A DNA stretch of 64,000 bases from Planctomycetes bacterium syqfu (GTDB lineage: Bacteria; Planctomycetota; Phycisphaerae; Phycisphaerales; Phycisphaeraceae), in assembly GCA_020974905.1 (NCBI GenBank), contig CP087563.1, forward strand, positions 5,394,001-5,458,000, given 5' to 3'. The notes under the pieces were generated by a model. The model had not been told where the DNA came from, did no database searches, and worked only from the letters and a program-made list of their open reading frames with translations. Numbering within the stretch: position 1 is the stretch's first letter; each line of letters begins with the position of its first letter. The position numbers were made by a program, and so were the translations under genes. Shown one piece after another: positions 32,001-51,100 of this stretch.

Positions 32001-33905
32001 TTAACGAGCGCTGAGACTTTGAGTTGATGGGCTACGTTTTTGTGCTGTATTTTGCATCGTGCGTTGACGTTGACGATGGAAATACCACCATTCAAAGATC
32101 AATATCGCCAGCGCAATCCAAAGCAGGGTCGGCCAGAAGGAACGGTCCATCGCGATCGGCTTGGCAGCAGCGGTGATCGATAGCTCTCGGAACTGCAATT
32201 GCTCGACACTTTGCAACGTGGACTCATCGCTATTGAGTAGTGAAGCCCCCATGCTCAGCACGACATCACCGCCATCCTTGAGGCTGTATTCCCCCGTACT
32301 CGGGCAGGCAAGACCGATGAGTTTGCCCCGGACATTACTGGTGACACGTTGCGTCTGGCCGCTGGGGTACTGCCAGGTGTAGGACTTTTCGCCGATGACT
32401 TCCATGGGCGGGAACACACCCGTGTGATGGGCCTGCACTTCCTGAAGTCCAGCATGATGCATGGCCTGACGCACGAGGTTACTCAAGATCACCGGGAAGG
32501 CCACACGGTAAGGCAGGGTCGTTCTTGCTGCATCAACCGTGAGAATGTACTCCACATGGCTGTCATATTGCTTGGTCAAAAGCAACGGTCCCTTACTGCC
32601 ATGAATGAGAATCCGGTAGCCCAGTGATTCAAAATCAAGCTCGCGGACATTCTCTTTGAGTGTGGGTTGATCGAGCACGATGATGTCGTTGAGCGTGATA
32701 TGCCCAAGCAGCGGGTCCGCACGGTTCCATGAAACCACGTCACTGCCTGCGTCCTGCTTGATCTCCATGAGTTGCGTGAGTTCCTGGGGCAGGGCACCAT
32801 TACGCCAGATCACCTTCACATTATCCACCACCGAGTCCGGCTCGTTGGTCAGATACAAATCCGCAGGCGAATTGCCCGACACCAGCATCACATTGTCCAT
32901 CGCCTTGATGGCCAGTTGTTCAGGCACCATCGGCTTGTCGATGTTCACTGCCAACGGACGCAAGCCGGTGAGATCCACATAGGCAACGTTATCCGATAGC
33001 AAAGCATCGAAACTGTCAGGCAGTAACTTGATGGTGACATGCGAAGCTTCATCTGCGGTTAACCGGAACACCAGTTTTTTGGGGCCATCCAGATCGACAT
33101 GCACATCCTCCGTGCCAACGAGTTGATCATTCTGATACACCTGCACCGTCGCATTGCCCGGGGCGTTGGCAGCAACGAGTTTGACGAACACATCCCACTG
33201 ACGACTATCTGCGCGTTGAGCATTGAGCGTTGCTATGCCCATGTTCACGCCCGGTGATTTGAGCTGTTGATAGTCAATATTAAACGGCAAGGCGAAGTCC
33301 GTCTTGGCAGGGAAATTGCCATCGGAAAACAGCACGACCTGTTCGAAAGGTTCGGCACGTGCCATGGCATCGGCCATCCGCATCGCGTCTTCCAGATCAC
33401 CAGGAACCTCGCGGATTTTTACCTGCTCCAACGCAGCCTTGAGTTCACGTTTGTTGTTGGTAAATGCGCAAAGTCGTTGAGCGGTATCCGAAAAGGCGAT
33501 CAGGCTGATCTGTTGATCACTGAGCAGGCCGTCGATGATCTCGTTGACTTGTGCTTTGGCAGCATCCAGTCGCGATTGCCCGCCGGGCCGATCCATCGCT
33601 GCCATACTCGCAGAACAGTCAATGAGAATCGGCACACGCTGGGCGCGCTCGGCATCGGACTTCCAGTAAGGTTGCATGGCTGCCAACACCAGCATCGCCA
33701 ACATCAACAGCTGCAACAACAACAGCAAATTGCGTTTGAACTTCTGGAACGGAGCATTAACGCGACTGTCAGATAACACCTGTTGCCAAAGTACCAGCGA
33801 CGAAACTTCCAATCGCTGCCGCCGGAGTTTAAGGAAATAGAACACCACAATGGGCAAAGCCATCAAAGCCAGCAAAGACATCAGTGGTGCGAAGAATCCA
33901 GGCAA
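32001..33905 (-). CDS. BatA-like membrane protein with von Willebrand factor A domain
   Basis: The 634-residue product has the BatA N-terminal pattern: a first helix FFAPLMSLLALMALPIV, a basic KLRRQR segment and a second helix at about 58-78. A vWA domain follows with the MIDAS residues D96-x-S98-x-S100 in LIDCSASM. A long beta-rich exposed region (about 250-590) and a C-terminal helix (about 600-618, FWPTLLWIALAILIFEWWYF) complete it. The TTG start at 33905 is chosen because the F-x-x-P-L pattern of the family precedes the first ATG. It is the last gene of the operon that includes moxR and the DUF58 gene, with an ACAGATGAACAC repeat in the 140-bp gap. Such proteins are linked to envelope stress tolerance or assembly. 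Confidence 0.87.
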   Translation of the reverse strand: MPGFFAPLMSLLALMALPIVVFYFLKLRRQRLEVSSLVLWQQVLSDSRVNAPFQKFKRNLLLLLQLLMLAMLVLAAMQPYWKSDAERAQRVPILIDCSASMAAMDRPGGQSRLDAAKAQVNEIIDGLLSDQQISLIAFSDTAQRLCAFTNNKRELKAALEQVKIREVPGDLEDAMRMADAMARAEPFEQVVLFSDGNFPAKTDFALPFNIDYQQLKSPGVNMGIATLNAQRADSRQWDVFVKLVAANAPGNATVQVYQNDQLVGTEDVHVDLDGPKKLVFRLTADEASHVTIKLLPDSFDALLSDNVAYVDLTGLRPLAVNIDKPMVPEQLAIKAMDNVMLVSGNSPADLYLTNEPDSVVDNVKVIWRNGALPQELTQLMEIKQDAGSDVVSWNRADPLLGHITLNDIIVLDQPTLKENVRELDFESLGYRILIHGSKGPLLLTKQYDSHVEYILTVDAARTTLPYRVAFPVILSNLVRQAMHHAGLQEVQAHHTGVFPPMEVIGEKSYTWQYPSGQTQRVTSNVRGKLIGLACPSTGEYSLKDGGDVVLSMGASLLNSDESTLQSVEQLQFRELSITAAAKPIAMDRSFWPTLLWIALAILIFEWWYFHRQRQRTMQNTAQKRSPSTQSLSAR

Positions 33906-33935
33906 AATTTATGTTTCCTGTTCCAAGACAAATTT

Positions 33936-34020
33936 GCCACAGATAAACACAGATGAACACAGATGTGAAAGTCTGTGCTCTGATTGCCTTGATCTGTGTT
34001 TATCTGTGTTCATCTGTGGT
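33936..34020. repeat. ACAGATGAACAC-type palindromic repeat, both arms intact
   Basis: Left arm CCACAGATAAACACAGATG with further ACACAGATG units (33937-33965) and right arm 33992-34019 are near-perfect inverted complements around about 26 bp. It sits inside the operon between the DUF58 and BatA-like genes, and also occurs at 24964-25037. Confidence 0.85.
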
Positions 34021-34045
34021 TTCATTCTTTATTCCAATAGCATCA

Positions 34046-34945
34046 TCAAACAAGCCACGCTTCCCGTCTCATCTGATCAAACAACACGGTACTCAAATCT
34101 TCATCACTGTTCACACACAAGAACTTTCCGCCACGCTGTCGGGCCAATGCCGCGATGGTGTTCTGGAAGTTGGACAGATATTCGTGATACAGATCCAGCA
34201 GGTTGTCCTGGGCGGTCACATCCAGAATGTCCGCGTTTTCGCAGTCCACCAATCGCAGGTCAGACGTCAGGTCCGGGTCCAGTTCACGTTCACCGAGAAT
34301 CTGGCAGGCAAAGATTTCAAGCCCCGCATTGTTGAGCGTGTTAAACGTTCGCTTCAGATCACCGTAGGTTAAAAAGTCCGAGAGCATCACGACAATGCCC
34401 TTGCCGCGATGTCGTTTGAGCATGGTGTCCACTGCATCATCCGGTGGTTGACTGCCACCTTCACCGGACTCAATATTTTCGACGAATTTCAAAAGCTTGT
34501 GCAGACTCCCGCGACCGGTTGCCGGGCCGACCATCGACAGGTTGTTGGCTGGTTGATTAAACGTGTACACACTCACGGGTTCAGCAGCGAAGAGTCCGCA
34601 GACACACATTGCAGCAGCGAGTTGCTGGGCGCGTTGAAGTTTGCCATCCACCATCATGGAACTCGACGCATCGACAAGGATGACGATCTGCATCTGTTCT
34701 TCGTGATGGAAGAGCTTGATGTAGGGCTTTCGCAGTCGCGAGAAAATGTTCCAGTCGATAAAGCGCGTGTCGTCACCTTCCACGTAATCGCGGTAGTCCG
34801 CAAACTCCATGGACGAACCACCCTTGGCTGCAAGGTGTTCGCCGCGCATACGATTGGTGAACCGACCTGACGCGTTGATCCGCAAGCGTTCGAGCCGATG
34901 CAGCATGTCGTTGCCTAAGAGTTTGGTGACTTGTGCTTGTTCCAT
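34046..34945 (-). CDS. DUF58-domain protein
   Basis: The 299-residue product is a typical DUF58 protein, the soluble partner of MoxR ATPases. GEHLAAKGGSSMEFADYRDY then VEGDDTRFIDWNIFSR is the family signature, and a vWA-like core follows with MIDAS-type LVDASSSMMVD. I start it at ATG 34945 (MEQAQV): the in-frame extension to 34990 is encoded by an RS3-like repeat and gives the artefactual MDSRLRGND peptide. It is the third gene of the moxR-containing run, between moxR and a BatA-like gene. DUF58 proteins are thought to be handled by MoxR during maturation of vWA or metalloprotein complexes. Exact role unknown. Confidence 0.9.
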   Translation of the reverse strand: MEQAQVTKLLGNDMLHRLERLRINASGRFTNRMRGEHLAAKGGSSMEFADYRDYVEGDDTRFIDWNIFSRLRKPYIKLFHHEEQMQIVILVDASSSMMVDGKLQRAQQLAAAMCVCGLFAAEPVSVYTFNQPANNLSMVGPATGRGSLHKLLKFVENIESGEGGSQPPDDAVDTMLKRHRGKGIVVMLSDFLTYGDLKRTFNTLNNAGLEIFACQILGERELDPDLTSDLRLVDCENADILDVTAQDNLLDLYHEYLSNFQNTIAALARQRGGKFLCVNSDEDLSTVLFDQMRREAWLV

Positions 34946-34963
34946 GGTGTTGTTCGTCTTCTC

Positions 34964-34989
34964 GTCATTCCCGCGAAGGCGGGAATCCA
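34964..34989. repeat. RS3-like ATTCCCGC hairpin, half element
   Basis: GTCATTCCCGCGAAGGCGGG then AATCCA forms a single hairpin in the 70-bp gap between moxR and the DUF58 gene. It is the left half of the element seen complete at 27806-27895. Confidence 0.75.
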
Positions 34990-35015
34990 TGCCTTGTCAT
35001 TTTCCCTTGGTCACA

Positions 35016-36026
35016 TTAAACCGTCTCAGGTACCTGTTCGGTTAACTGCTGGATCAACTTGGCAGGGACGACGTTTTCCGCCTGCCCGTCATAGTTGAGT
35101 AACGCACGGTGTTGGAGGATTTCCACTGCAAAATAACGGATATCCTCAAAGGCGACATGCGGCCGACCTTCGGATAATGCACGGACGCGGGCTGCAAGAA
35201 TCAAACCCTGAGCAGCACGCGGTGATGCACCCCAGCGGACATATTTCTTCACAGCGTCGGTTGCAAACTCACTATCCGGATGCGTTGCCAGCACCAGGCG
35301 GATGGCATAATCGCGCATGGCATCGGCGACGACGACTTTGTTAAGCAGGTTCCGCATCGCAAGAATTTTTTCGCTGTTGAGTACCTTGGGGACTTCGAGA
35401 GCCTGCTTGAGAATCGTGCGCGTGACGATGTCGTTTAACTCCTGTCGCGATGGGAAGGGGACGGTGACCTTAAACAGGAATCGGTCAAGCTGCGCTTCGG
35501 GCAGCGGGTAAGTGCCTTCCTGTTCGATGGGGTTTTGCGTTGCAAGGACGAAGTAGGGTTCTTTCATTTGATAGGTCTGGCCACCTACGGTCACCGAGTG
35601 TTCCTGCATGACTTCAAGCATGGCTGCCTGTGTCTTGGGCGTTGCGCGGTTGATTTCGTCTGCAAGCAATAGCTGCGTAAAGACCGGGCCTTCGCGGAAC
35701 TCAAGGCGGTAGTTGCCTGACGTACCGCCTGCATCATCACTGGTGAGAATGTTGGTGCCCACGACGTCAGCAGGCATCAGGTCGGGGGTGAACTGGATAC
35801 GGTTGTAATCCAGTTCCAACGCGCGTCCCAGTGTTTTGACGAGTTGGGTTTTACCCAGACCCGGGACACCTTCAAGCAGGACGTTACCGCCACAGACCAT
35901 GGCCGTGATCACGGCTTCGACGACACGGTTCTGGCCGACGATGACCTGACCGACTGCATCGCGGACCTGGGTCAGCAATTGCTGGAAGACTTGGGTTTCC
36001 TGTTGCATGCGTTCAATGTCGCTCAT
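35016..36026 (-). CDS. MoxR-family AAA+ ATPase
   Basis: The 336-residue product is a MoxR AAA+ chaperone-like ATPase. Walker A is GVPGLGKTQLVKT, Walker B is LLADEINRATPKTQ, sensor 1 lies in FVLATQNPIEQEGTYPLPEAQLDRF, and the ATP-responsive C-terminal lid is present (GASPRAAQ). MoxR proteins work with vWA-domain partners in activating or assembling complexes. The gene begins 9 bp after the vWA protein gene on the same strand, with GAGGATG as ribosome site, and is followed by DUF58 and BatA-like genes, the standard MoxR/vWA order. An RS3-like repeat lies in the gap to DUF58. Length is typical for the family. Confidence 0.94.
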   Translation of the reverse strand: MSDIERMQQETQVFQQLLTQVRDAVGQVIVGQNRVVEAVITAMVCGGNVLLEGVPGLGKTQLVKTLGRALELDYNRIQFTPDLMPADVVGTNILTSDDAGGTSGNYRLEFREGPVFTQLLLADEINRATPKTQAAMLEVMQEHSVTVGGQTYQMKEPYFVLATQNPIEQEGTYPLPEAQLDRFLFKVTVPFPSRQELNDIVTRTILKQALEVPKVLNSEKILAMRNLLNKVVVADAMRDYAIRLVLATHPDSEFATDAVKKYVRWGASPRAAQGLILAARVRALSEGRPHVAFEDIRYFAVEILQHRALLNYDGQAENVVPAKLIQQLTEQVPETV

Positions 36027-36035
36027 GATTCATCC

Positions 36036-39000
36036 TCAACTGGGTTGGTTGTCATCTTGATCGCCGCGCTGTTTTCGCTTCAGACGTAACAGTCGGCTGG
36101 TGGTCGAATCGTCATCCGAGTCGGCCTGTGTGGGTTTATTCTCCGTCGATCGCGTGGGGGCGTCATCGACTTTCTGTTCAACGATGATCTCCATCTGCGA
36201 CTGCCTCGGGCCTGAAGTTGATTTGGCTTTCGTCTTCGGCGTGTCATCCGTCTGATGGAGTTGGTCTTTGACGGCTTTACGTTTCTTAAGCAAGGTGTCG
36301 AAAGTTTCCTGCTTGGGGGTGATCGTCTTATGCGGGCCAAAGAGGTCTTTGAAAAATTGTTTGTCCACCTGAACACGTCGGATCGCCACATCCAACGGCA
36401 GCAGGCAACACAGGGCAAGCAGTAACCAGTCAAACGACGGCTTGGAGGTGAAGCGTTCCTTGCGGTCTTGCGGGAAGACTTGAGCAGCGGTGGTCTCAGG
36501 CGTGAGTAGATTCCCGCCGGTCTTCTCGACGATGTTCTTCACGGTCATCGGACTTGAACCAAACCGCAGATACTCCTGGGAGTAGGGCACGACAAAGCCT
36601 GCGTGCATGCGTTGGTTTTTACCATCACCGGATGCGGTCGCAATGACTTGATACCGACCTTCACCCCAGAGATCGAATCGCGCTTCGTATCGCTTGGGGG
36701 CGATCTGTTCGAGGGGCACGGTGTGCGATTGACCATCCGGGCCGATGACCTGGGCGGAGATGTTGTACAGTGGGGAGTCGGGTTCGAAATCTTCGACGGT
36801 GACAATGCCGGTGTTCCCACTGGTAAACGCCTGCATGTGCATGTTGCTTGAAGTGCTCACGCGCGCGACGTCTTTGATGAGTTGACTGACGAAGGCCTGG
36901 TAATGCTGCCACCCCATCCAGTTGGCTGCCCAGTTGGAGGACAGGTCGGAGGTGAACGCTGCGGTCTTGCCGATGCCGTATCGCCATGTCGCCAGCACGG
37001 GATCGGGCTCACGTTGTTCGGGGCCTTCGAGAATGGTGGTGCTTCGTGGCTTGGGCGTGGTGAGGATGTAACCCTTAAGATCCGGCAAGCCGTCAATGCC
37101 TTTGAGGATCGGCGAAGGGAAGTCGATGATCGGGTTAAAGACCTTGTTCTGAATCATGCTCCGGCGAAGCGTCTTGGCTTCCTTGATGAAAATCGAAGGC
37201 AGCTTGTTGGCATCCTGCGGGAAGTAAAAGCGTCCGCCGGTGACATTGGCGATGGCCTGCATGGTTTGCGTCTGCGTGCCATGCGGGAAAACTGCGACCG
37301 TGCTGACGGTGATCTTGTTGTTGACGAATTCCTGAAGCAAACCCGGCGGTGGGGGCTGTGGATCACCGTCGGAGATGATGATCATGTGACGCTCAGCCGC
37401 ATCGTTGTTTTTAAATCCGTTGAGTGCCAATCGCATGGAGGTGGCAAAGGAGGGCATGTCGCCAATCTGGGCGCTGTTGATCTTCATCGCCAATTGGTTG
37501 TACTGTCCTGCTGGGGTGAACGGGAAGAGCCATTCGTCACCACCTTGCCAATCAAAAACAAGCACGCCGACATCGTCCTGAGAACCGAGGACCTGAATCG
37601 CCTGCTTGGTGATGCGGCTGGCCCATGTGTTGCCTTGGGGAAACTCGCAGGTATGCAGCGTAATGGCCAGCGCACTCTTGGGCAGGATTTTCTTGTTCTG
37701 CACATCCATCGTCACCGGCAGGATTTCTTCCACCAGCGTATGGTGATACCCACCGGGACCAAAACTCTGATCACCGCCAACCATCACAAAACCCGAGCCC
37801 TGATGGAACACCGCATCGCGCATCGCCTGCATCTGTGGCAGTGACAATTGATCGGCTGGCACGTTGACCATCACAATGCAGTCATAGGGCAACAATGCCA
37901 ACGGGTCCGACGGGAGTTCATAGGCGGAGATCAATCGCACCTGACGCTTGGCAAGTTGCAATGCATCACGCATCGACTCCCAGTCGCGCTTGTCGCCTTC
38001 CAGATTCGTCACCATCAAGACCGAGCCTTTGCCCTGCAAAAACAGGTAACTGATCGCGCGGTTGTTGCGGGCGTGTTGATCGTCTTCCTTGGCAGTTTCA
38101 ATGATCGCTTCGTATTCGTAGTAACCATCTTCCCGCAACGTGATCGGCAAGGTGTATCGGTTCTTGCCCGCCTGATACGTCACGTCGTCCTGGTAAATGA
38201 CGTTGCCATTTTCCTTGAGAATCAGCTTGCCTTTACCCGGTGATAGCGACGAAACAATCGCAGCTGCTTCATACGTCTCACCACTGCGGACAAAGCGGGG
38301 CAAATCCAAACGCTCAACCCAGACTTCCTTATCGTGGTCATAGCTGATGGGTAAAACGTCCACCGGAATCTTGCGTGCAGCCAATTCATCCAGCACGCGA
38401 TCCAGATCGCCTTCAGTCTCCGTGCCATCGGTTACCAGCACGATGCGCCCGAGTTTGTCATCGGGAATCAATGCAGATGAAAGACTCAGGGACGAAGCGA
38501 GATTGGTGCCATCATTATTGACCTGCACATTGATCGCTTCAAACGGGAAGCTCTGCATGGGGGGCAGTTCGACTGCTGCATCACGCCCGAAAAACACCAA
38601 CCCGACACTGTCTTTTTGTGGCTTGGTGTTGGCGGTGTTCACCGCGAACTTGATCGCTTCCTGGCGCATGTTCGGTGAGATTGATGCTGAGGTGTCCACC
38701 GCAAAGATCACCGACATGGACTTATCACTGCGGACACTTCGCGGCTGAGCCAATGCTGCAATGACCAGGCACAGCAACACCCAGCGAAAGCCATACACCC
38801 ACGCGCGACGGGTACCGCCAATACCTGCATGACCGGCTGCGATCATCCACCAGAACCACGGGAATAACAGTGTCAGCCAGAATGCCGACGGTCGTGTGAA
38901 AATGAGTTTGTTGGTGAAATCAAGGGTGAAGCAGACCCCCAGGAACAGGGCCATACTGGTGATGGGCAACCACCATGCAGACCGCGGCACCGGTTTTCTC

Positions 39001-39041
39001 GGTGGCGGGAAGATGCGCAGGATGATGTCCCGGATGGTCAA
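36036..39041 (-). CDS. large membrane protein with vWA and glutamine-amidotransferase-like domains
   Basis: The 1001-residue product has three N-terminal membrane helices (about 25-105). A vWA domain follows with MIDAS D116-x-S118-x-S120 in VDTSAS and a DGTETEG loop, then a beta-domain. A glutamine-amidotransferase-like Rossmann region (about 400-480) contains VMVGGDQSFGPGGY. A second vWA-like fold lies at about 490-640 with ISDGDPQPPPP, and a C-terminal helix precedes a Lys/Thr/Ser-rich cytoplasmic tail. The second vWA-like region lacks a standard D-x-S-x-S motif. It starts four bases inside the upstream ABC/NHL gene (ATGA overlap) and is followed 9 bp later by moxR, so it is translationally coupled to both. 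Planctomycete relatives are usually in moxR operons; function unproven. Confidence 0.87.
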   Translation of the reverse strand: MTIRDIILRIFPPPRKPVPRSAWWLPITSMALFLGVCFTLDFTNKLIFTRPSAFWLTLLFPWFWWMIAAGHAGIGGTRRAWVYGFRWVLLCLVIAALAQPRSVRSDKSMSVIFAVDTSASISPNMRQEAIKFAVNTANTKPQKDSVGLVFFGRDAAVELPPMQSFPFEAINVQVNNDGTNLASSLSLSSALIPDDKLGRIVLVTDGTETEGDLDRVLDELAARKIPVDVLPISYDHDKEVWVERLDLPRFVRSGETYEAAAIVSSLSPGKGKLILKENGNVIYQDDVTYQAGKNRYTLPITLREDGYYEYEAIIETAKEDDQHARNNRAISYLFLQGKGSVLMVTNLEGDKRDWESMRDALQLAKRQVRLISAYELPSDPLALLPYDCIVMVNVPADQLSLPQMQAMRDAVFHQGSGFVMVGGDQSFGPGGYHHTLVEEILPVTMDVQNKKILPKSALAITLHTCEFPQGNTWASRITKQAIQVLGSQDDVGVLVFDWQGGDEWLFPFTPAGQYNQLAMKINSAQIGDMPSFATSMRLALNGFKNNDAAERHMIIISDGDPQPPPPGLLQEFVNNKITVSTVAVFPHGTQTQTMQAIANVTGGRFYFPQDANKLPSIFIKEAKTLRRSMIQNKVFNPIIDFPSPILKGIDGLPDLKGYILTTPKPRSTTILEGPEQREPDPVLATWRYGIGKTAAFTSDLSSNWAANWMGWQHYQAFVSQLIKDVARVSTSSNMHMQAFTSGNTGIVTVEDFEPDSPLYNISAQVIGPDGQSHTVPLEQIAPKRYEARFDLWGEGRYQVIATASGDGKNQRMHAGFVVPYSQEYLRFGSSPMTVKNIVEKTGGNLLTPETTAAQVFPQDRKERFTSKPSFDWLLLALCCLLPLDVAIRRVQVDKQFFKDLFGPHKTITPKQETFDTLLKKRKAVKDQLHQTDDTPKTKAKSTSGPRQSQMEIIVEQKVDDAPTRSTENKPTQADSDDDSTTSRLLRLKRKQRGDQDDNQPS

Positions 39042-40840
39042 AGTTCAAGCTCCACGATGCGGCGGTTGCCCGTGTCCATGATGCGTAATTTGTGATCCGG
39101 CGTGATCGTCAGTGACCAGGGCGTCATGAATTGATCATCCCCCCGACCCGTCTTGCCGAACGTCGCAATGATTTTACCCGACAAATCCATCTCTGTGACC
39201 CGACCTGCACCATATTCGGCGATATAAAAATGATGTCGGTCATCCATGGTCAGATCGTACGGTAAATCAAGGTGGTTTTGGCCAAGTGTATCGACGTGTT
39301 TGCCGGTGTTGATGTCGAAAACCAGAAGACGATTGTTGATTGCATCCGCGACATAAAGTTTGCCGTCGTGAAGCAGACAACCGCTTGCACGTTGAAACTC
39401 TCCGATGCCGGTACCTGCCTTGCCGAAGGTCATGACATGTTGCAAGTCCGCTGTGAATTTCTGAACGCGGTCATTGCCACCGTACTCGACGACGTAGACG
39501 AAACCGTCCTTGTCCTGCGTGAGTGAGACGGGATAAATGAATTGTCCTTTGCCTTCACCCCGCTCACCGAACATGCGTGTGATCTTGCCTGTCTGATCGA
39601 AAAAGACGATGCGATGGTAATGCGTGTCAGCAACGGCGATCGTCCCATCCTGCATCAGACAGGTGCCTTCGGCATTGCCGTTGGCATTGGTGGGCAGGTT
39701 CCAGATGTCGGTGACCTTGCCGGTGTTGTCATAGAGTAGCACACGCCCGGCGGTGTCGAGCACCACCATGCGCCCGTCGGGCAGCATCCGGGCTGACCGC
39801 GGGGCAGGGACGCTGATGTCATCCAGCGGCACGGACCAGACGGCGGTGTTCTTCACGGGAATGGTGGCTTGATTGCCCGAAGGCTTACATCCCGTGATCA
39901 GCAGCAAACTCACCATCATCAACACGGTGATCAAATTCAATCGAACGCGATCCAACGTCTTGAGTCCTGCTGTGGGTAGATGCCAGAAGTCACGCCGATT
40001 TTCTTGGTCATCTGCAACACTGGAACATTGAACATGCCCATGAAATTGCGTGCGTTTGATCGTCAATGGACTTTGCTCGTCGGTGATCAATTGCAACTGC
40101 TCCGGGCGGATGCATCTTGCCTTGGGTACATGGTCCGGGAGAAAGATAGGCATCTGGGATTCCGTCATCCAATTGGCAGGACCGAGTAATTCTGCAATCT
40201 CGCGGGTTTGGGGATGCAGGTAGACTTGTTGTGTGACGCCTTGTGCAAGCACTTTGCCATCGCCCATGCAGATTACCTGGTCCGCATAAGCAAGCACGCG
40301 CGATGGATCATGCGTTGCAAAAATCAGGGATTGGTTTTGTCGTCTGAGCGTGTCGATGATCACCTGCCAATACCGCATTGCATCCTGATGTGCGACATGA
40401 GCCAAGGGTTCATCCATGATCAGAATTGCTGCGCTGCTGACCATCGCGCGTGCAACGGACAATCGGTTTTGCTGCCCGCGCGAAAGTGTATCCGGCTTTT
40501 TGTTGGCATGATCCGCAAGGTCCATCGTCTTTAGCCAATGATCAGCCGACATCTTGTCGGACAGCGCGGTTAAATGCTGCATCACCGTCATGTGAGGCCA
40601 AAGTCCGTCATCCTGGGGCACCCAATACACCGGCAATTGCTCTTTGTTCTGCGTCGGTGATGTGAAGATCAGTTTGCCTGCACTTGGTTTTTCAAACTCA
40701 ACGAGTAAGTTCAGCAGCGAGGTCTTACCCGCGCCGGAGATGCCCACCACTGCCGTGATCCCCGGCGAAAAAGACAGCGAGATGCCAACCAGACGACCGG
40801 GCATGTCGATGTGCTCTAGTTGCCAAAGCGTTTTAACCAT
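39038..40840 (-). CDS. ABC transporter ATPase continuous with an NHL-repeat lipoprotein-like domain
   Basis: Residues 1-230 form an ABC ATPase: Walker A VVGISGAGKTS, Q-loop WVPQDDGLWP, signature LSRGQQNRLSVARAM, Walker B ILIMDEPLAHV, His in ATHDPS. A TOBE-like segment (about 240-315, RPEQLQL...LDRVRLNL) runs directly in frame into a hydrophobic helix with a lipobox, LITVLMMVSLLLITGC (about 318-338). A six-bladed NHL-type beta-propeller follows (about 345-600; repeats such as DGTIAVADTHYHRIVFFD). The ATPase would couple to the permease and binding protein just upstream, with which it overlaps by 8 bp. Whether this is one protein or two is open: a TTG at the LDRVRLN segment could start a separate lipoprotein, and a TGATG in the next frame suggests an ancestral stop/start overlap. 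Confidence 0.85.
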   Translation of the reverse strand: MVKTLWQLEHIDMPGRLVGISLSFSPGITAVVGISGAGKTSLLNLLVEFEKPSAGKLIFTSPTQNKEQLPVYWVPQDDGLWPHMTVMQHLTALSDKMSADHWLKTMDLADHANKKPDTLSRGQQNRLSVARAMVSSAAILIMDEPLAHVAHQDAMRYWQVIIDTLRRQNQSLIFATHDPSRVLAYADQVICMGDGKVLAQGVTQQVYLHPQTREIAELLGPANWMTESQMPIFLPDHVPKARCIRPEQLQLITDEQSPLTIKRTQFHGHVQCSSVADDQENRRDFWHLPTAGLKTLDRVRLNLITVLMMVSLLLITGCKPSGNQATIPVKNTAVWSVPLDDISVPAPRSARMLPDGRMVVLDTAGRVLLYDNTGKVTDIWNLPTNANGNAEGTCLMQDGTIAVADTHYHRIVFFDQTGKITRMFGERGEGKGQFIYPVSLTQDKDGFVYVVEYGGNDRVQKFTADLQHVMTFGKAGTGIGEFQRASGCLLHDGKLYVADAINNRLLVFDINTGKHVDTLGQNHLDLPYDLTMDDRHHFYIAEYGAGRVTEMDLSGKIIATFGKTGRGDDQFMTPWSLTITPDHKLRIMDTGNRRIVELEL

Positions 40841-42218
40841 GATCAGGCAGTTTTCTTCCTCTGGAGATCATCACGAATAAACCCAACACCAACGGTGGGA
40901 GCATGTAGGTGAGCACGACCATCGCACTGAGCGTTTCATACTTGCCATAGTGCATCAGATTGTACAGGCGAACGACCGCGCCTTGCATGCCCGGTGGAGA
41001 CAGCAGGGCGGATGCAGGCAGATCGTGATACGTGATGTAAGCGATGATGCCGGTTAACAGCAGCATGCTGCGGACTTGTTGTTGCCAATGCAAATGCCTG
41101 GCGAGCGTTTGATGCTGTTTATTCAGGGATAAACGCGTGAGCCATGTGAGGTGCTGGCCCGTTGAGCGTTGACGGAGAATCGGAGCGAGAATCAATGCTG
41201 CAGGCAACGCGATCCACGTCAATGCCAACACCAATGGCAAGGGCGTGTCATACATCGCATTGAACGTGTTCGTTTGGAAGAGTCCAAGGATGATCAGTCC
41301 GACCACCAGTGAACCACACAGTCCGGGTAAACACATCAGCCAACGCACCCATCGCGGGGTGAAACCAAGCAGCCAGGTGAACATGCCAATGAGCAGAGTT
41401 GATAGCGCAGCATACATCACGCTGTAACCAATCTCCTGCCAAATCTCCGGCTTGGTGATGACGGTGGGCATGGCGCCGATCGCCGGTTTGAGAACCCACC
41501 ACCATGGGATGATCAAACACAGCAGCAAACTCACCAACCACCAACCAACGAGCAAGCTCAAACGAAGACGCAAGCTGTGACTGGAGGGCGTGGGATGTAA
41601 TGAAGTCCGCTGCGCGCGTGTGGGTAATGCCATGAACACCAGCCACAATAACGCCAGACTCACACTGCCGGGCAGCATCAGCCACCTGAGGGTTGAGCTT
41701 AATGGTGCGCCGCCCACCTGTGCATCAAACAGCCAGATACTCCAGTGGGTGCAAGCCATGCGTGATGTGATTTCAAACTCGGTGAAACTGAGCACGAACA
41801 CCACGGCAAAGGCCATGACCAACACGCGTCCCTGACCATGAAGGATGAAGCTTGTCCACCGACTGCGACGAGCGAGTTTGAGATTGTGCATCGCAGCAGC
41901 CGAGAGCGGGGCTGGCGGAGCCATGTGTATCAGCAGCAACGTCACCGGGAAAAACCGGATTGCAAGCAGCAGTGAATACAGCAGGTCATTGAGGATCGGA
42001 TGTCGGATCAAAGACAACGCGACATTGGAATACGCATAGCCAATGACCAAAGGTGGCATGAAAATCGGGATCAGCAGCAACCACCCGAATCGCTTGACCA
42101 GCCGAACCTGTTTGAGGGTTGGCAAACAGAGATGAGCTAAAAGGGTACACAGACCCGCGACAGCCATGCTGCGACATAACGTGAGCATGACCGCCCGGAA
42201 CAATGCCTCACTCATCAT
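40833..42218 (-). CDS. ferric-type ABC transporter permease (two-fold, FbpB/ThiP-like)
   Basis: The 461-residue product has about 11-12 membrane helices arranged as two similar halves, the layout of FbpB/ThiP-type importers where one chain serves as both permease subunits. The cytoplasmic coupling loops are recognisable by position (AAAMHNLKLARRSRWTSFIL in the first half and RLSLNKQHQTLARHLHWQQQ in the second). Both lack the conserved Gly and the EAA residues of the family. It starts on the last base of the binding-protein stop (TAATG) and overlaps the ATPase gene by 8 bp, so all three are translationally coupled. Probable role: uptake of iron or another small substrate delivered by the upstream binding protein. 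Sequence divergence lowers certainty about the substrate. Confidence 0.82.
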   Translation of the reverse strand: MMSEALFRAVMLTLCRSMAVAGLCTLLAHLCLPTLKQVRLVKRFGWLLLIPIFMPPLVIGYAYSNVALSLIRHPILNDLLYSLLLAIRFFPVTLLLIHMAPPAPLSAAAMHNLKLARRSRWTSFILHGQGRVLVMAFAVVFVLSFTEFEITSRMACTHWSIWLFDAQVGGAPLSSTLRWLMLPGSVSLALLWLVFMALPTRAQRTSLHPTPSSHSLRLRLSLLVGWWLVSLLLCLIIPWWWVLKPAIGAMPTVITKPEIWQEIGYSVMYAALSTLLIGMFTWLLGFTPRWVRWLMCLPGLCGSLVVGLIILGLFQTNTFNAMYDTPLPLVLALTWIALPAALILAPILRQRSTGQHLTWLTRLSLNKQHQTLARHLHWQQQVRSMLLLTGIIAYITYHDLPASALLSPPGMQGAVVRLYNLMHYGKYETLSAMVVLTYMLPPLVLGLFVMISRGRKLPDHG

Positions 42219-43297
42219 TACTGCAGGTACTCCGACTTGAGCCAGTCGAGGGTTGCCTGACGTGCCGGTTCGAGTTGCATCAGCGGATAGCCTTCGGTTG
42301 CCCAGACTTTGAGTTGCTTGACTTCATCGGAGAGTTGTTCTTCGTCAACTGGACCCAGGGGAATCTGTCGGGCGGTGGATTGGCTGAGCTGGATTTCAAT
42401 GCGTTCACTGAGCAGATAGTCGATGAGTTTTTTGGCAAGCTCAGGTTGCGGGCTACCTTTAACCATCATGACGGTGTTGGGGATGCAGATGGTTTGGTCG
42501 GAGTCTTCCAGGCGATAGGGGAGCATCTCTACCGAGCGTCCTTCGTCTTTAGCAACGAAGAAGTCATCGGTGTCGGTCCAGCCGATGGTGCAGTTGGCCT
42601 GGGCGACAAGGTTTTTGGTTTGCCCGTTGGATTGGGCGATGATCATGCCCCGTGATGTCATCTCGTCATGCCAGTCTTTGAGGCCGTCTTCGCCCATGGT
42701 TTGCCAAAGGACGGTGTAGTGCGTGCGCGTCGTGCCGTACAGTGGTTTGGCAATGGTGACGCGATCGAGATTTTCTTTTTCCATCATCACGTCAATGGCC
42801 TGGGGGGTAGCCGTGATCATGTTGGTGTTGATGATCCAGACACGCAGGCGAGCCGCAAAGCCGGTCCACAGACCATCGGGATGCTTGAAGGCTGCTGGGA
42901 TGCGTTCGTAGCCTGTGCCTTTGTAGGGTTCGAGAATGCCTTTGGATTGCAGGTCGAGTGTGCCAAGGATTTCATTGTTCCAGAAGACATCACATCGCGG
43001 GTTGTCCTTTTCGCGGATGAGTGATTCGGTGAGGCCAAGGGACTTGGTGGCTTCGGTGTCAAAGCGGATGTTGAGTTTGATGCCGGTCTCTTTTTCGAAC
43101 TGCTTGAGAATGGGTTCGGAGTAGACCGAATCATGTGCACAGTAGACCGTCAGTTCACCCTGAACAGGCTTGGGAGCAGGGGGTTGCTTGGCAACATAGA
43201 TCAGGCCTGCAACGATGCAGAGTCCGGCAATGAGGGTGATGGCTGTGATGAAAAGGGAGTGCGATTTACTGGGGGGCTGGAGACCTTGTTGATTCAT
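42218..43297 (-). CDS. extracellular solute-binding protein, ferric-type (family 1)
   Basis: The 359-residue product has a hydrophobic segment at about 15-35 without a lipobox, so it is likely anchored or released by signal peptidase I. A two-lobed binding protein follows. LTVYCAHDSVYSEPILKQFE then KETGIKLNIRFD is characteristic of the FbpA/FutA-like ferric-binding group, and NPRCDVFWNNE, TRTHYTVLWQ and GQTKNLVA are further family segments. It should deliver its ligand to the adjacent permease. It begins 32 bp inside the upstream DUF4175-like gene and shares one base with the permease gene. The iron-ligand tyrosines cannot be pinned down with confidence; a phosphonate, sulfate or thiamine ligand is possible. 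Confidence 0.87.
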   Translation of the reverse strand: MNQQGLQPPSKSHSLFITAITLIAGLCIVAGLIYVAKQPPAPKPVQGELTVYCAHDSVYSEPILKQFEKETGIKLNIRFDTEATKSLGLTESLIREKDNPRCDVFWNNEILGTLDLQSKGILEPYKGTGYERIPAAFKHPDGLWTGFAARLRVWIINTNMITATPQAIDVMMEKENLDRVTIAKPLYGTTRTHYTVLWQTMGEDGLKDWHDEMTSRGMIIAQSNGQTKNLVAQANCTIGWTDTDDFFVAKDEGRSVEMLPYRLEDSDQTICIPNTVMMVKGSPQPELAKKLIDYLLSERIEIQLSQSTARQIPLGPVDEEQLSDEVKQLKVWATEGYPLMQLEPARQATLDWLKSEYLQ

Positions 43298-44981
43298 TTT
43301 GCGCCTGTTCTATGGTGTCAAAGTACTTCTTGATGGCATCGTGATAGCCGGCGGGTACTTGTTCGGAGTCAATGGCCTGGGCGGCATCCTGCTTGACGGT
43401 GTTCAGCGATTCCTGATAGTCCTTGTTGGCGGTACCGGCGGGGGCTTTACCCTTGGTTTTCCAAGAAAGCAGAATCTTGCCAGCGTTGAGCTTGGATTGG
43501 TCTTTTTCGGTTTTGAAGTTGGTGGTGATCGAATCGTCTTCCGGGGCGATGTTGCCCTGGCCTTGTCCCGGACCACCCATGCCACCGCCTTGACCAGAGC
43601 CGGGTTTGCTGCCGCTACCTTTGCCGCTGCCTTGACCTTGTCCCTGCCCCTGGCCTTGACCTTGAGCATCGGCCATGGACGGGCTTGGCTGTTGACCTTC
43701 CCCGTTTTGCTGCTGCATCATTTTGTCATAAAGCTTCTGATAGTCCGACAGGGAGTTGCAGTTGGAACAGGCTTCACCGTCGAGGGGTTGTTGATTGTTG
43801 GCTTGCTGAGCCTGCTGAATGGTCTTGAGCGCCTCTTCGAGTTTCTTCATATCGCGGACACTCTGAGCTAGCTGCTCAAGTTCCTGCTGCGAGAGATTCA
43901 TCGCTTCCTGCAAGGCTTTGGACGCATCCTGGTTCATGTTCTCCATTTTGCTCATGTCCAGTTGCTGCAAGGCCTGTTGCAAAGACTCAGCAAGTTTCTG
44001 GCCGCCGTCCTGCTTGGTGGCATAGTCGGCCATCTCCTGAATGGACTGCTTGATGTCCTTCTGGAGTTTTTGTTTTTCCGCAGGGTCTTTGGTCTGACTG
44101 AGTTGCTCAGCTTTTTTCTTGATCTCCTCCATCTTGCTTTGGAGGTCCTGGCTTTGGCCGTTCTCCATTTGCTTTTTCCACTGCTTTTGTTGATCGGAGG
44201 TATTGCCAAAGCGTTGATTGGTCGGATTGTTTTTCAGTGACTGGGCGAGTTTTTTCTGTTGCCACTCCTGTTCGATGCGCTGCTTCTGATCAGCAAGACG
44301 CTGGAGATTGCCCTTGGGGTCCTGGGGCTTCATTTTGCGAAGCGCCTGTTGCAATGCATTGATGCGGGCTTCGACCTGCTTGGAGTTCTCAGCTTCCAAG
44401 TCCTGTTTTTTGAGTTGCTCGGTGCGTTTGACAATGGCCTTACGCGTTTCTTCCAAACGCTGCTTGCGTTCGGTAATTTTTTGTCGCTGTTCTTCTTGAC
44501 CCAGTAAATCAAACTGTGGCATCCACCAGACACCGGCAAGCAAAACCAGCAGGATCACCACGATGTGCATGAGTTTGTTACCCGGCGCGAACGGCACGAC
44601 CTGTTTGGCGGACACCGTGGGGGCTTTTTGATTGGCTTCGTCTGCAACCGCATCCTGATACTCACCGGTTGAGGTACTCAGTGAGGTGGCAGTGAGGAAC
44701 AGGTCCTTGGTCTTGGCATGTTCGTCTGCCAACCGGGCAGCTTGTGTCTGTGTGATTCCGCGATGGAAGATGCCGGCGATGAGCAAACCAACGAGGGGCA
44801 CGATCAGGACCGACCACCATTTAAATGGATCTTCAATCACGCTGGCCAATCGAAGCGTGATCAACGCAGTGACAAAAATCACCGCACAGACCAGAGACGC
44901 AACATACCACCGTCTGGCCAAATGGATCAGACGCTTGCGCGAAGCAATCTCACTGAGAAGTTGTTGCGGTGTACTTGCCAT
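43266..44981 (-). CDS. DUF4175-like membrane protein with long coiled coil
   Basis: The 571-residue product has three membrane helices (about 25-45, 55-72 and 138-158) and then about 280 residues of Gln/Lys/Glu-rich heptads that predict a long coiled coil. A low-complexity GQGQGQ...GSGKGSGSKPGSG stretch follows, then a C-terminal helical domain. The layout resembles DUF4175 proteins found beside MoxR/vWA genes. A CSNC pair occurs near residue 400. It is the first gene of the overlapping core operon: its end overlaps the binding-protein gene by 32 bp. The gap to the alpha-2-macroglobulin gene upstream holds a GCCAAGAT repeat. Function unknown; a structural or scaffold role in the envelope is plausible. 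Confidence 0.8.
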   Translation of the reverse strand: MASTPQQLLSEIASRKRLIHLARRWYVASLVCAVIFVTALITLRLASVIEDPFKWWSVLIVPLVGLLIAGIFHRGITQTQAARLADEHAKTKDLFLTATSLSTSTGEYQDAVADEANQKAPTVSAKQVVPFAPGNKLMHIVVILLVLLAGVWWMPQFDLLGQEEQRQKITERKQRLEETRKAIVKRTEQLKKQDLEAENSKQVEARINALQQALRKMKPQDPKGNLQRLADQKQRIEQEWQQKKLAQSLKNNPTNQRFGNTSDQQKQWKKQMENGQSQDLQSKMEEIKKKAEQLSQTKDPAEKQKLQKDIKQSIQEMADYATKQDGGQKLAESLQQALQQLDMSKMENMNQDASKALQEAMNLSQQELEQLAQSVRDMKKLEEALKTIQQAQQANNQQPLDGEACSNCNSLSDYQKLYDKMMQQQNGEGQQPSPSMADAQGQGQGQGQGQGSGKGSGSKPGSGQGGGMGGPGQGQGNIAPEDDSITTNFKTEKDQSKLNAGKILLSWKTKGKAPAGTANKDYQESLNTVKQDAAQAIDSEQVPAGYHDAIKKYFDTIEQAQNESTRSPAPQ

Positions 44982-45077
44982 GAAATCTCCCGGTTTTAAC
45001 TCCTTCTATCATACCATCTCTACCCCATAGACGGTGCAGTTGAGACGAAATTTCAGAGATTTGGCAAAGACATTTTT

Positions 45078-45164
45078 ACCGCCAAGATGCCAAGTTAAGA
45101 GAGAATTTTGTAAAAGAACATCAGTCAGTTCTAATCTCTTTCCAAACTTGGCGTCTTGGCGTTT
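45078..45164. repeat. GCCAAGATGCCAAG-type palindromic repeat
   Basis: T5-ACCGCCAAGATGCCAAG on the left and CTTGGCGTCTTGGCGTTT on the right are inverted complements around about 50 bp. It lies between the A2M-like gene and the coiled-coil gene and has the same T5-A-C start as the CACGAAG and ACAGATGAAC repeats. Confidence 0.75.
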
Positions 45165-45177
45165 CAAACAATAAGGT

Positions 45178-48100
45178 TTAATCCGTAATCTTCATGATCA
45201 GTTCATCACTGCCTGCATCAAGTCTGGGGACGTACATTGCAAAGACACGGGCGGGCAAAGCATGGAACACGCCGGGGACTTCCGCTCGCAGTCGGTATCG
45301 CAGCAGGTGCTTGCCCTGGGCGATGTGTTCGATGAAGAACATCGTCTTCTGATCGCGCAGTTCGCGATACGTGCCAAAGCCTTCCTGCCGGACATAGCCA
45401 CTTTGGACATCAATGGGTTCGCAACCTGCGGGCTTCTTGTCTTCGATGGCAAGATACGTGTAGTCATTGTCCGCTTCGAGATTCAGTTCAACCTGAATGA
45501 TCTCACCGCTGGTCACTTCGTCGCCATCATTGAGTTTGATGCGTTCGTAACGCAGACGATTTTCGGTGATCGTTTCACCCTTGCTGTTGTCCACGTCGAC
45601 CTCAAACGGGATTTGCTTCAGACGATAATAGGTACGCTTCAGATGCAGTTCATGACCATAGGCCGGGATGTGTTCCTGCATGCCGAAATAGGTCAGGCGA
45701 CTGTTCAGATACAACGCGCCGGTTCCCTGCTTGCGGATCGTCAGCGTGTGTTTGCCCGCGGGTAGCGAGACACCTTTGATGACGAATGTGTTGTCATGGG
45801 TCAACAGGTTATCCTTGTTGATCTTGACCGTCTTGGTGACCTTGCCATCATCAAGTTCCAACGTGAGTGTGTAGTTGGCATCACTTTCGCCACTGGTCTT
45901 GACGTACCGACTCATCGCATCAATACACAGCGCGGTATCGCGGGTCGAGCGCCAGTAGTAACCATGTTGGCGGTGATTCAGCAGCCACTTGATGACGCGC
46001 GGTGCTGCGTCGTCCTGCGGGGTGATCGTGGTCATGGCACGCAGAATCCATGCCTGCGTTTCAATGTCCGAGTTATACCAGTACCACCACCCCCGGAAGT
46101 TATTATCTGGATCATCGAACCATGTGAGTTTGGTTTCGTCATTGTCACGACGGTATTGCATAATGTTGCGCAGGACGGTTTTGGCGTCATCGGATTTATC
46201 CAAACGATGCAGACTCAATGCGAGCAATGCCTTGCCGTAGAGATTGAGTTTGTCTCTGCCTTCGTGGAGTTTTTCCATCCACGGGCCGGACTGCTTATGC
46301 AGTGCAAGGACGTAAGCCGCGTAGGCGGTCTGCGTGTTGACCGACCATTTATCTTTCTTGATCTCCTGATTCACAGCATTGTTGAGCCAGTTCACTGCAC
46401 GGCGGATGATGTTCTGATCCATATCCACGCCACTTTCCTGTGCTGCATGCAAGGCATAGAGCACGTGCGTGGTGAGATAGATGCGCGAGTCGGTTCCCTT
46501 CCACCAACCCCAGCCACCATCACCGTTCTGCATCGAGAGAATGCGGTTTAAGCCAGCATCAATGAGCTTGTCCATTTCCTTGTCATCAAAGATCGGACTG
46601 TCATGCCAGGGATGGATATAGGGCTTACCATCAACTTGCTTGGCTGGGAAGTTCTTTTTAATGTCCGCCAGCGTCAGCCCCATGTCCCGTAGCGTTTTTC
46701 GCACTTGGACTGCGGGGACGAATCGACTGATGGTCTGCTCGGTGCAGCCATACGGGTAGTCGAGCAAGTAAGGCAGGGCGTCGAGCATCGTGCCGATGAG
46801 CGTTGGCGAGAAGCTGACGTAAAGTTCCGTCTGTTTCGGATCGATCTGCTCTGGCAGGTTCAATTCGACCTTGATGGTTTTGTCATCATCACCGTTGGCA
46901 ACGACGGCAGTTTGTGCCTGCTGTTGGAGTGAACCATGAATGATCACCGGGATTGTCATCGCCATCGCGTCGGAAGCGTCCTTACCCTTGGCGGTGACAG
47001 CAATGCGTGCCATGCCTTGGTTGGTTGCGGTGAGATACCAGTTGACCGTCGCTTCACCACCCGCCGGAATGGTGACGGGATACGTAGCTGGCGCATCAAG
47101 GATCAAGCCGGTTCCAAGCATGATGGGACGGCCTTTGCCTTCACTTGCCATCGGTGCCAGCAGGTGGCTGGGGATTTCCAAACTTACTTCAACGGTCGTT
47201 TCGTGATCCAGATAGTTATGCACGTTGGCAGTGATCACCACTTCATCACGTTGGACGAGAAATCGTGGGGTTTGCAGACGCACGAGCAGGTTCTTGGTCG
47301 CGGTGGCTTGGGTGTCGCCCTGACCGACCTGCGTGGTTTTGCTCATCGCCCATGAGTCGATCTGCCATGTCGTGAGATTGTCGGGCACGGTGAAGCTTGC
47401 GGTCGCTTTGCCGTTGTCATCGGTGGTGATGGCATCAACCCACAACGCGGTATCCGCAAAATTCTCGCGGGTACTCACTGGTTGATCGGCCTGGCTTTGG
47501 GCTTCTTCCATGGCATCGTCACCCAATGCGACATCACCAGCGACTTTGAGTTCAGATTTAGCCATGGCACTGCCGTCAAGTTCGACTGCTTCTGTCATCG
47601 GCATCGCCGTGGGGGCGGTGGCGTTGACAGCACCATCCGCGAAGTAAGTAGCCCCGCCTGATGCACGGGCGCCGCGTTGCCGAACCATTCCCAGGTCGCT
47701 GATTTCATCACCATCGGTCACACGCCAGTCACTGATGGCCGGCCCCCAGGTTCCATCCCAATCGTCGGGCGTTGCATAGCGATACGTCGATGGGTCGGTG
47801 ATATTGCCTGCATGCGTGAACTGCTTGCCAAGGTTGGTTTGACTGTTGAGGTTGTGATAGTTCTGCTGACCGTGGTAATAGCTGCCCATGCTGCCGGAAG
47901 TTCGGCCTGCGATGTAGAGCAGTGACTGATCAAACGCACTGAGAACAACCTGCGTCTGCGCCGGTTTGCCGGTCATGTCCTTGGCGGTGATGCTGACCGT
48001 TGCTGTTTCACCGGGTTGGTACGTTGGCTTGTCGGTTTGGACGGTGATATCCAGCATGCTGTCTGCGGGGGGGACACAGATTTGAGCCAATTGCTGATGG

Positions 48101-51100
48101 AGTTTGGCATCACTGACCGTCACCGCTTCGATGAAGAAGTTGGGACGGTGTTTGTTTTCAACGGGGACGTCGATGACCGTGGATTTACCTTCAACATGAA
48201 TCAACTTCCAATTTTTGAGAATGCCGTTTTGCGCATCGGTACTCAGCAGGACATAGCTGTTCGCCTGCTTGGTGTTGATCATGACATGCGCGGTTTGTCC
48301 CGGCTCGTAGGTGCGTTTGTCGGTGATGAGTTCCAGATCGTTAAAGCGGTGAAGCTTGCCATCAAATTGATTGCCAACCACCCAGACCAGGCTGAAGCCT
48401 TCGACGGTACTTCCCCAGCTATCCGGTGAGGTGAAGTGGAATTTGAGTTGGCCGGAGTTTTCGTAACGATAGCTGATGGATGCCATACCTGATGCGTCCG
48501 TTTCAAGGGTTTGGCGATCCAGTTCCACTTCGTTGATGGTGGTGTTTTGTGGCCCGGTCCATTGGACTTTGGAGATGACCAATTGTCCCTTGGCCTGCAC
48601 CGGTGAACCGTCGGGATTGCGGCAGATGATTTTGATTTCCATCTGATCACCGCTGCGGTAATACCCACGTGTCGGCTGGAGTGTGGTGAAGTAGGCTTGA
48701 CGGGTAGCAAGGACATTGCCCTTGCCGGTGATCACACGGCGTGATGCGTCACGGACTTCAGCTTCGACGATGTATTGGTGATCCTGATCGCCATGCTGTT
48801 TGAGTGCATCCGCTGAGTCGATGGTGATAGTGAGTTTACCTTTGTCATCGAGTTTGCCTTCGCCTTGGGCGACCAGTTCGCGGGCGTTGGACGGTTGCCA
48901 CCACGGATACCAACCGTACCACCAGTCCGGAGCGATGACGCAGCCGCGACCCCACCAGCCAAACCACGGTGATTCATACCAACTCAGGCCATAGCCTTGA
49001 CCGTAAAGCCAATCCCATGGTCCGGGGAGAAACTGCTTGTGCGTGTAGGTTTCGCGATAGACTTTGTAGGTCACATCACCATGGGTGACCGGTTGGCCGA
49101 AGTAGTATCGGCCGCCGATGTCGACTTTGATTTTTTCGCCGAGTTTGACCTGTGATTCACTGGTTTTGACAGTGACTTCGAATTCGGGCTTCTTGTATTC
49201 TTCGACTCTGAATTGTGCGCCTGCGGACTCGTTGTATCGACCGTGGAAGTCGATGCGGTATTGGCCGAGCGTTGCTTGATCACCAAGTTCCAGTTGGCCG
49301 GAGATGCCGCCGAAGCTGTCGGTGGTCAGCGTCATGTCCTTGAGCTTTGTGCCACGCGGATCATAGATGGTGATGGATAGTTTTCGGCCTGGTGCATTCT
49401 CCCATTGTCCGTCCTTAAAATCGCGAACCCATGATTTGAATTTGACGGTTTGGCCGGGACGATACACAGGACGGTCGGTGAGGGTGTACACCGACGGAGG
49501 GCGTTGGGTGTTGCGTTCGTTGTAGGGGTTCCAGTAATCCAGATCATTGGTTGCAAAGCGTTCGCCGTTTTCGACCATTACATGCAATTGACTGCCACGC
49601 TTGCGTTGGCCGGTGAACAGGGCAAGGCCGTTGGCATCGGTGACCAGATCATGATCCACTTTGTGATAAATCGTCTTGCGGGTTTTGCGGTTCCATTCGT
49701 TCCATGTTTCAAGGATGGAGAGCTTGCTGTTTGCCAGGGGCGCACCATTGCGACTGTCGGTGATGAAATAGAGATTGCCTTTGGTGGTTTGTTTCTGGAC
49801 GATGGCCATGTCACTGATCATCATGACCGTGCGACTGTGGCCGTTGTTGTGAGGATGACCTTGAACGTTGCTCTTGGGTTTGTTGTACCAGGCCCAGACG
49901 ATGTACGTGCCGTTGGTGTCGATGGGACTGTCGACGGTGGCTTGTGCCTCGCGGTGATCCACACCGGGTTCAAGTGCTCGGTCCCATGAGATGACAGCAT
50001 CGTCAAGATGTTCAAGAATCAGCTTGTTGATCGGAGATTGGATGGGTTGCTGGTGGATGAGTAATGAGTCCCACTGTCCGAGTTGCCAGATGTTGATGTG
50101 TTCGTCGTTCTTGCGGTCAAAGGACAACTCGCGCATGGCTTTGAGAAAGCCGGGCAGATTGAACTTACGAGCTTGAAACCAGACATGATCGACGTTGCGG
50201 TATTGCACGTTGAGTTGCGCTTTGGCGTTGGGCAACTGCATGCCGGGGACGCTGGTGCTGATGGATTGTTCGAGGATGCGATTCTTGTTGTTCTGAGCAT
50301 GAGTGATGCGATTGGATTGCGGGAAGTCCTTGATGAGTTGGTCATAGGTTTGGATGGCTTTGGGATACTGCTTGCGACCTTGCAGGTAATAGCCACGGGC
50401 AAAGAGCGCTTCGTCTGCCTGCTTGCCCTGGACCTGATCCAGCAAGCCGAGAATGTTCCAGTGTTCAGGGAGCACGACCTTGCGCATCTTGCCGCCTGCA
50501 AGGACGATCGCCTGGTTGTCCGCCAATTCCCAAGGCACGATGGCATTCATCTGTTCACGATAGGGCTGAGAACTGCCATCGTAGTACATGTTGGCATAGA
50601 CATTCATGCGATTCATGCCAAAACGTTTGCGGGCGAGCATGGCCTGGCGATAGAGACTGAGGTTGGCATGTTGCTTGTCTGCGGTGTCATCAAGCTTGCG
50701 GATTTCAGCCAGTAAAAACAGGGCTTTTTCGTCATCGGGTAAGGTTTCATTCCACGCATCGGGCATCGCGGGGAAGATCGGTTGGTCTTTGTCATCGACC
50801 AATAAACCGATGGGGCGTTTGCGGTGATACTGCCAGACATTTTGGTTTTCGTCGAAGTCTTCTTCGCCAGCGGTTTGAGCTAACGTGTCATCGCGCTGTC
50901 CCCAGTACCAATGCCAGTAATGTGGTTGCTGCTCGAAGATGCCAAACGCAGCGCATGCCGACGCCAGGTCAAAGAGATTGCGGATGCGGCGTTCGTGCCA
51001 ATCCTTGATGTCGGTTTTGCCTTCCCATTGGGCGTAGAGTTCCCGTGCCTTGGTGAGTTGTTCCAATGCGAGCTTCTTGTCATGACGATGCGATTGCAGG

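Follow-up and report, generated by a model that had tools for sequence, protein, structure and literature searches.

How can one reading frame encode both the ATPase of an importer and a lipoprotein domain expected outside the membrane? The locus that raises this question lies in the window, by which we mean the whole stretch of 64,000 nucleotides that was analysed. On its minus strand, positions 39038..40840 form one open reading frame of 600 aa with an ATG start and a TGA stop. An ABC ATPase, a hydrophobic segment with a lipobox and an NHL propeller follow one another in this frame, as the preliminary description had reported, and the junction, LKTLDRVRLNLITVLMMVSLLLITGC, is free of stops in the fused frame. 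In a single gene, a motor domain expected in the cytoplasm stands beside a propeller expected outside, an importer ATPase being joined to a lipoprotein domain that is predicted to be exported.

The ATPase domain takes up residues 1-230 (40151..40840, minus strand) and was assigned from PF00005 and alignments. It carries GISGAGKTS, LSRGQ, LIMDEP and ATH; the hallmarks of PotA/PhnT/FbpC-like importer ATPases (Walker A, signature, Walker B and switch His) are all present in the fused frame. Residues G33, G36, G38, K39, S120, G122, D143, E144 and H177 did not vary in 18 alignment rows. On the 600-aa frame, Pfam matched ABC_tran at 19-147 (3.3e-25) and NHL (5.1e-15). None of the named NCBIfam ATPase models among the matches listed (25 of 182) reached its cut-off, and the best of these was PhnT, with 103.9 bits versus a cut-off of 499.15.

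Residues 231-302 (39935..40150, minus strand) are without a Pfam match and end in DRVRLN. We take this tail to be TOBE-like from its position. In the alignment, the separate ATPase of one relative (G021) stops shortly beyond the stretch matching this tail. The last residues of the tail, DRVRLN, would form the charged n-region of a signal. It is followed by a hydrophobic h-region with a lipobox at residues 303-317 (LITVLMMVSLLLITG; 39890..39934, minus strand) and by Cys318 (39887..39889, minus strand), the predicted site of lipidation and LspA cleavage. The propeller part covers residues 318-600 (39041..39889, minus strand) and was identified by PF01436 and Foldseek.

A structure model of the whole protein, made from an input alignment of 3 rows, had a mean pLDDT of 53.7. 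It was confident in the propeller only and is uninformative on how ATPase and propeller are arranged. It shows 24 strands between residues 335 and 599, and a helix at 295-315 that is mostly below pLDDT 50. When Foldseek was run with the propeller, NHL propellers ranked at the top (6xg7, 4.9e-23). The NHL profile matched the PknD structure 1rwi at 1.6e-22; we take PknD to be the same protein as Mbk.

The fused gene stands in an operon-like order on the minus strand: alpha-2-macroglobulin (2118 aa, 45178-51534), an unassigned protein, a solute-binding protein (42218..43297), an ABC permease (40833..42218), the 600-aa frame, a VWA protein (36036..39041, PF13519), a MoxR AAA+ ATPase (35016..36026, PF07726 at 4.9e-61), DUF58 and BatA/VWA. 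The fused gene and the VWA gene share 4 bases (TTGA), in which the stop of the former overlaps the TTG start of the latter. The permease of the window had no Pfam or NCBIfam family match at 0.001; in 59 other loci the permease is the fusion partner of the lipoprotein. The importer is embedded in a minus-strand cluster (32001-51534) with MoxR, DUF58, BatA/VWA and alpha-2-macroglobulin.

In sequence, the solute-binding protein belongs to the ferric or aminoethylphosphonate type (PF13343, 6.5e-11), and the closest PDB entries are Fe3+-binding proteins (3wae, 1.2e-13). We considered a ferric importer and set it aside: the Tyr-Tyr pair of the Fe3+-binding proteins, presumably their iron ligands, aligns with Phe-Phe in the protein of the window. 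With this replacement the substrate may not be ferric iron.

The preliminary description had proposed a comparison of homologs. A search of 51 genomes of the family gave 11 matches at E 1e-40 or better, the window's genome included. In 8 of these 11 loci, the window again included, ATPase and propeller share a frame that is stop-free across the junction; in the remaining three the genes are separate. The other seven fusions are 94, 75, 62, 54, 44, 44 and 40% identical to the window, so the fusion is conserved down to 40% identity. The relative at 94% is a Phycisphaeraceae metagenome assembly (G001). Between the window and G001, dN/dS was 0.04-0.10 for each part of the frame, junction included, which argues that translation runs through the whole frame and that selection acts on the protein it encodes. 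Against G003, dN/dS over the 15-residue signal stretch was 0.54, from few sites.

We then searched 251 genomes of the order, 298 of the class and 392 of the phylum, in overlapping samples, with a propeller profile (A1). The profile matched 51 order genomes (1e-80), 112 class genomes (1e-70) and 72 phylum genomes (1e-70). An open frame of at least 600 aa, taken as a proxy for fusion, was found for 47/51 order, 46/113 class and 38/72 phylum matches of these overlapping samples. Loci were examined in 119 newly fetched regions; one locus from before and that of the window bring the set to 121 loci. They are mostly best-scoring matches, so that high scores are favoured and the counts are no census. 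Fusion state was called from profile matches within a stop-to-stop frame.

The 121 loci comprise 30 ATPase fusions, 59 permease fusions and 32 loci with a separate propeller gene. Homologs are therefore not always separate, since 89 of the loci are fused. ATPase fusions were found in families f51 (19), f1 (8) and f36, f52 and f103 (1 each). The permease fusion was present in 40 of the 41 order loci examined outside f1 and also in several families of the class. Counted among the 89 are incomplete frames, one with a break inside the propeller (G002) and two at a contig end (G380 and G182), as well as G424 and G752, whose permease match is divided over two frames. The broken frame of G002 (L138, contig C61) comes from a draft genome. 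A VWA gene lies downstream of the propeller gene in 102 of the 121 loci; in 15 of the loci without one, the fetched stretch was long enough to have included it.

Around the 59 permease fusions, no ATPase match was found within the fetched regions, some of which are short (e.g. L141 and L147). A whole-genome search for the ATPase covered 15 genomes, nine of them with a permease fusion. In these nine, a dedicated ATPase encoded elsewhere was looked for and no member of this ATPase family was found. Their best ATPases scored 139.5-169.6 bits, versus 357-424 in three family members; an ATPase paralog in the window's own genome scored 173 bits in the same search. With no family ATPase nearby or in the searched genomes, the permease-fusion importers are probably served by a shared ATPase encoded elsewhere.

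All fused frames have a candidate lipoprotein signal at the junction. A Cys with G, A or S at -1 follows a hydrophobic stretch in 89/89, and the residue is Gly in 80. The n-region is net positive in all 30 ATPase fusions and in 57 of the 59 permease fusions (87/89). Counted from the last charged residue, the Cys lies at a median distance of 15 in ATPase fusions, 16 in permease fusions and 16 in separate lipoproteins, and the h-region of the fused frames is as short as that of the separate ones. In the window the signal consists of the n-region RVRLN, 15 residues and the lipobox ITGC. ITGC agrees with the strict pattern [LVI][ASTVI][GAS]C, which occurs in 12/30 ATPase fusions, 22/59 permease fusions (34/89 together) and 11/29 separate lipoproteins. 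Because strict lipoboxes are few in fused and separate proteins alike, those of this family look loose in general. Pro stands at -2 in 12/89 fused frames, and two permease fusions (G380 and G394) have Glu or His at -4. The signal is located about 300 residues into the frame instead of at the N-terminus of the protein as translated.

The junction Cys was the best candidate that a script found near the propeller start, a procedure biased toward finding one, and in four loci it was assigned by hand. The Cys search found none in 3 of the 32 separate loci (G467, G515 and G572). We also looked inside the stop-to-stop frames for a signal-peptidase-II-like pattern, counting it as internal when more than 150 aa preceded it and more than 100 aa followed. 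It coincided with the junction Cys in 86/89 fused frames. As a control, the same pattern occurred anywhere inside 7/324 ATPase, permease, VWA, solute-binding protein and MoxR frames of the 121 loci; in a separate tally of NHL-containing frames beyond the 89 fused ones, it occurred in 5/30. These counts come from related sequences and are not independent draws, and the controls (7/324) answer the bias in Cys selection in part only. In 28 of the 30 ATPase fusions the ATPase profile match ends 12-20 residues ahead of the Cys. The TOBE-like tail thus passes directly into the signal, with next to no linker left before the hydrophobic stretch begins.

A tree of 120 propellers was built by a quick method with SH-aLRT support, G002 being left out. 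One group of 36 rows (support 100) contains 29 ATPase fusions and 7 separate loci. The other half of the tree holds the 59 permease fusions and 24 separate loci, and one separate locus adjoins the 36-row group. On this tree the three states require 13 changes; well-supported branches alone need at least 4 for each fusion type. As the fusion partners differ, there were at least two fusion events. The window's family groups with f51, which belongs to another class, and apart from its own order. This placement suggests horizontal transfer of the locus.

Fused and split loci stand side by side on this tree. In G443 (L190) and G461 (L195), permease and lipoprotein are in one frame divided by a single TGA 28 codons ahead of the Cys; G457 (L182), which adjoins G461, is fused. 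Such alternation with little other change is expected if both forms give the same mature proteins.

We consider it fairly probable that the internal signal directs export of a single chain, which is then lipidated and split by LspA into a transporter subunit and a lipoprotein, cleavage being predicted from the signal. One frame would give one chain, of which the importer ATPase would fold in the cytoplasm. The end of the TOBE-like tail (RVRLN) and the hydrophobic stretch would act as an internal lipoprotein signal peptide, and Sec would export the propeller. Lgt would put diacylglycerol on Cys318 and LspA would cut before it; both enzymes (PF01790 and PF01252) scored above cut-off in the window's genome. 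One product would be the ATPase, still bearing the used signal at its C-terminus until this is trimmed off. The other, an NHL-propeller lipoprotein, would be a separate protein of the outer face and a partner of the importer, and the two would be made in equal amounts. In relatives without a nearby ATPase gene, the like signal after the permease would be processed alike. The usual place of the propeller gene between the importer and VWA/MoxR suggests that the propeller is a sensor or docking partner of the importer.

That 89 of the 121 loci, 30 with an ATPase fusion and 59 with a permease fusion, have a stop-free frame supports cutting. Several observations count against it. A hydrophobic tail would remain on the ATPase after LspA, the signal stretch looks loosely constrained against G003, strict lipoboxes are in the minority and some frames have Pro at -2. 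We are evenly divided on the wider proposal that LspA-matured polyproteins occur throughout the phylum, releasing an importer subunit (ATPase or permease) and a propeller lipoprotein, with the cut site as the evolutionary joint to whichever transporter gene lies upstream.

Two genes could have been joined by a sequencing or assembly error, as the separate genes of some relatives (G021, G008 and G074) might suggest; a merger by a one-base change had been offered as an alternative for the window. The same frame, however, is found in assemblies of many species and is common to relatives down to 40% identity. It also recurs in the distant family f51, where 9 of the 19 ATPase fusions come from single-contig genomes that are 99-100% complete. 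The conserved fusion excludes a one-base join for the group, and an artefact is scarcely credible. The TGATG noted in the other frame at the junction is present in the window but absent at the same place in G003. Alternatively, the lipoprotein could be made mainly from its own start inside the ATPase or permease frame, the read-through fusion being a by-product. Some ATG, GTG or TTG does lie between Cys-35 and Cys-14 in 79/89 fused frames, and four ATPase fusions (G020, G028, G731 and G679) have a workable ATG in a GMR motif. Yet all three codons are missing there in 10/89, and G654 has no start codon within 40 codons. Such absence is a weak test, as 26% of control windows in the ATPase genes and 13% in the permease genes lack all three and the fused frames do so no more commonly. 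ATG is missing from this interval in 24/30 ATPase and 31/59 permease fusions, versus 73% and 51% of control windows in the same genes, and is thus not enriched. Among seven close ATPase fusions, any one start position is common to at most two. The TTG proposed earlier as an internal start at LDRVRLN (39953..39955, minus strand) is present in the window but reads CTG in the 94%-identical G001. A ribosome on the ATPase frame encounters no junction stop in any case. With no start position conserved and ATG not enriched, it is unlikely that the lipoprotein generally relies on a start of its own, and we regard this explanation as quite improbable; an extra, internally started copy of the lipoprotein may be made beside the full chain.

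A different possibility is that the chain stays whole and the propeller is bound to the importer through one membrane pass, as are the substrate-binding domains of OpuA or the NHL domain of Mbk/PknD. OpuA joins its substrate-binding domain to the permease by a short linker and a hydrophobic anchor (PMC11065425), and the mycobacterial protein Mbk consists of a kinase, a transmembrane region and NHL repeats, with its gene in a pst phosphate-transport operon (PMC1262709). The fusion with either transporter subunit also persists over long distances, and its retention on long branches could reflect selection on the tether itself. A plain anchor, however, requires no lipobox, and the G/A/S-Cys pair is kept in every fused frame. 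Nor does a tether fit h-regions as short as those of separate lipoproteins, or the alternation of fused and split loci on the tree. In MalK-like ATPases the TOBE-type tail domain points away from the membrane. With next to no linker past the TOBE-like tail, an uncut chain would therefore be strained. We judge a whole chain to be rather unlikely, and cutting at the lipobox is more likely.

If LspA splits the chain, bacterial lipoprotein processing takes on the added role of a polyprotein protease, and globomycin would strike the importer as well as the lipoprotein. If the chain is uncut, it is a new single-chain link from ATP use to an outside sensor. The switching of partners between lineages is a natural experiment on the origin of gene fusions at signal peptides.

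A cluster that combines MoxR with a VWA protein and a propeller is also found in MoxR-vWA beta-propeller ternary systems, in which the vWA component carries the fused propeller (PMC7159879). We considered such a ternary (conflict) system for this locus and rejected it, as the propeller here is on a transporter subunit and not on the vWA component. The VWA protein of the window has only VWA and GATase1_like matches, and its MoxR protein matches the bpMoxR model (5.7e-11) more weakly than AAA_3 (4.9e-61).

In OpuA-type importers, as described in PMC11065425, an extracytoplasmic domain is likewise linked to a transporter subunit via a hydrophobic segment. Unlike OpuA, the part joined here is an NHL propeller, the solute-binding protein has a separate gene, the ATPase is a possible partner and a lipobox-like Cys is kept. 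Mbk resembles the fused frame in its cytoplasmic nucleotide-using domain, single pass, external NHL domain and transporter operon (PMC1262709). Its cytoplasmic part is a kinase, whereas here it is an ABC ATPase.

Among the open-licence papers listed in our literature searches, none was on a lipoprotein-type internal signal joining an ABC ATPase or permease to an NHL propeller. FbcH of Bradyrhizobium is a cytochrome b-c1 polyprotein that is divided at an internal signal peptide. In hepatitis C virus, the core protein ends in the signal peptide of E1 and signal peptidase separates the two (PMC5402940). In both, as in the scheme proposed here, the signal peptide of the second protein forms the end of the first. 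Polyproteins split by signal peptidase are already a known kind, as are ABC importers with fused domains. Unlike those of core-E1 and FbcH, the signal at this locus is of the lipoprotein type, and its predicted cleavage would need LspA.
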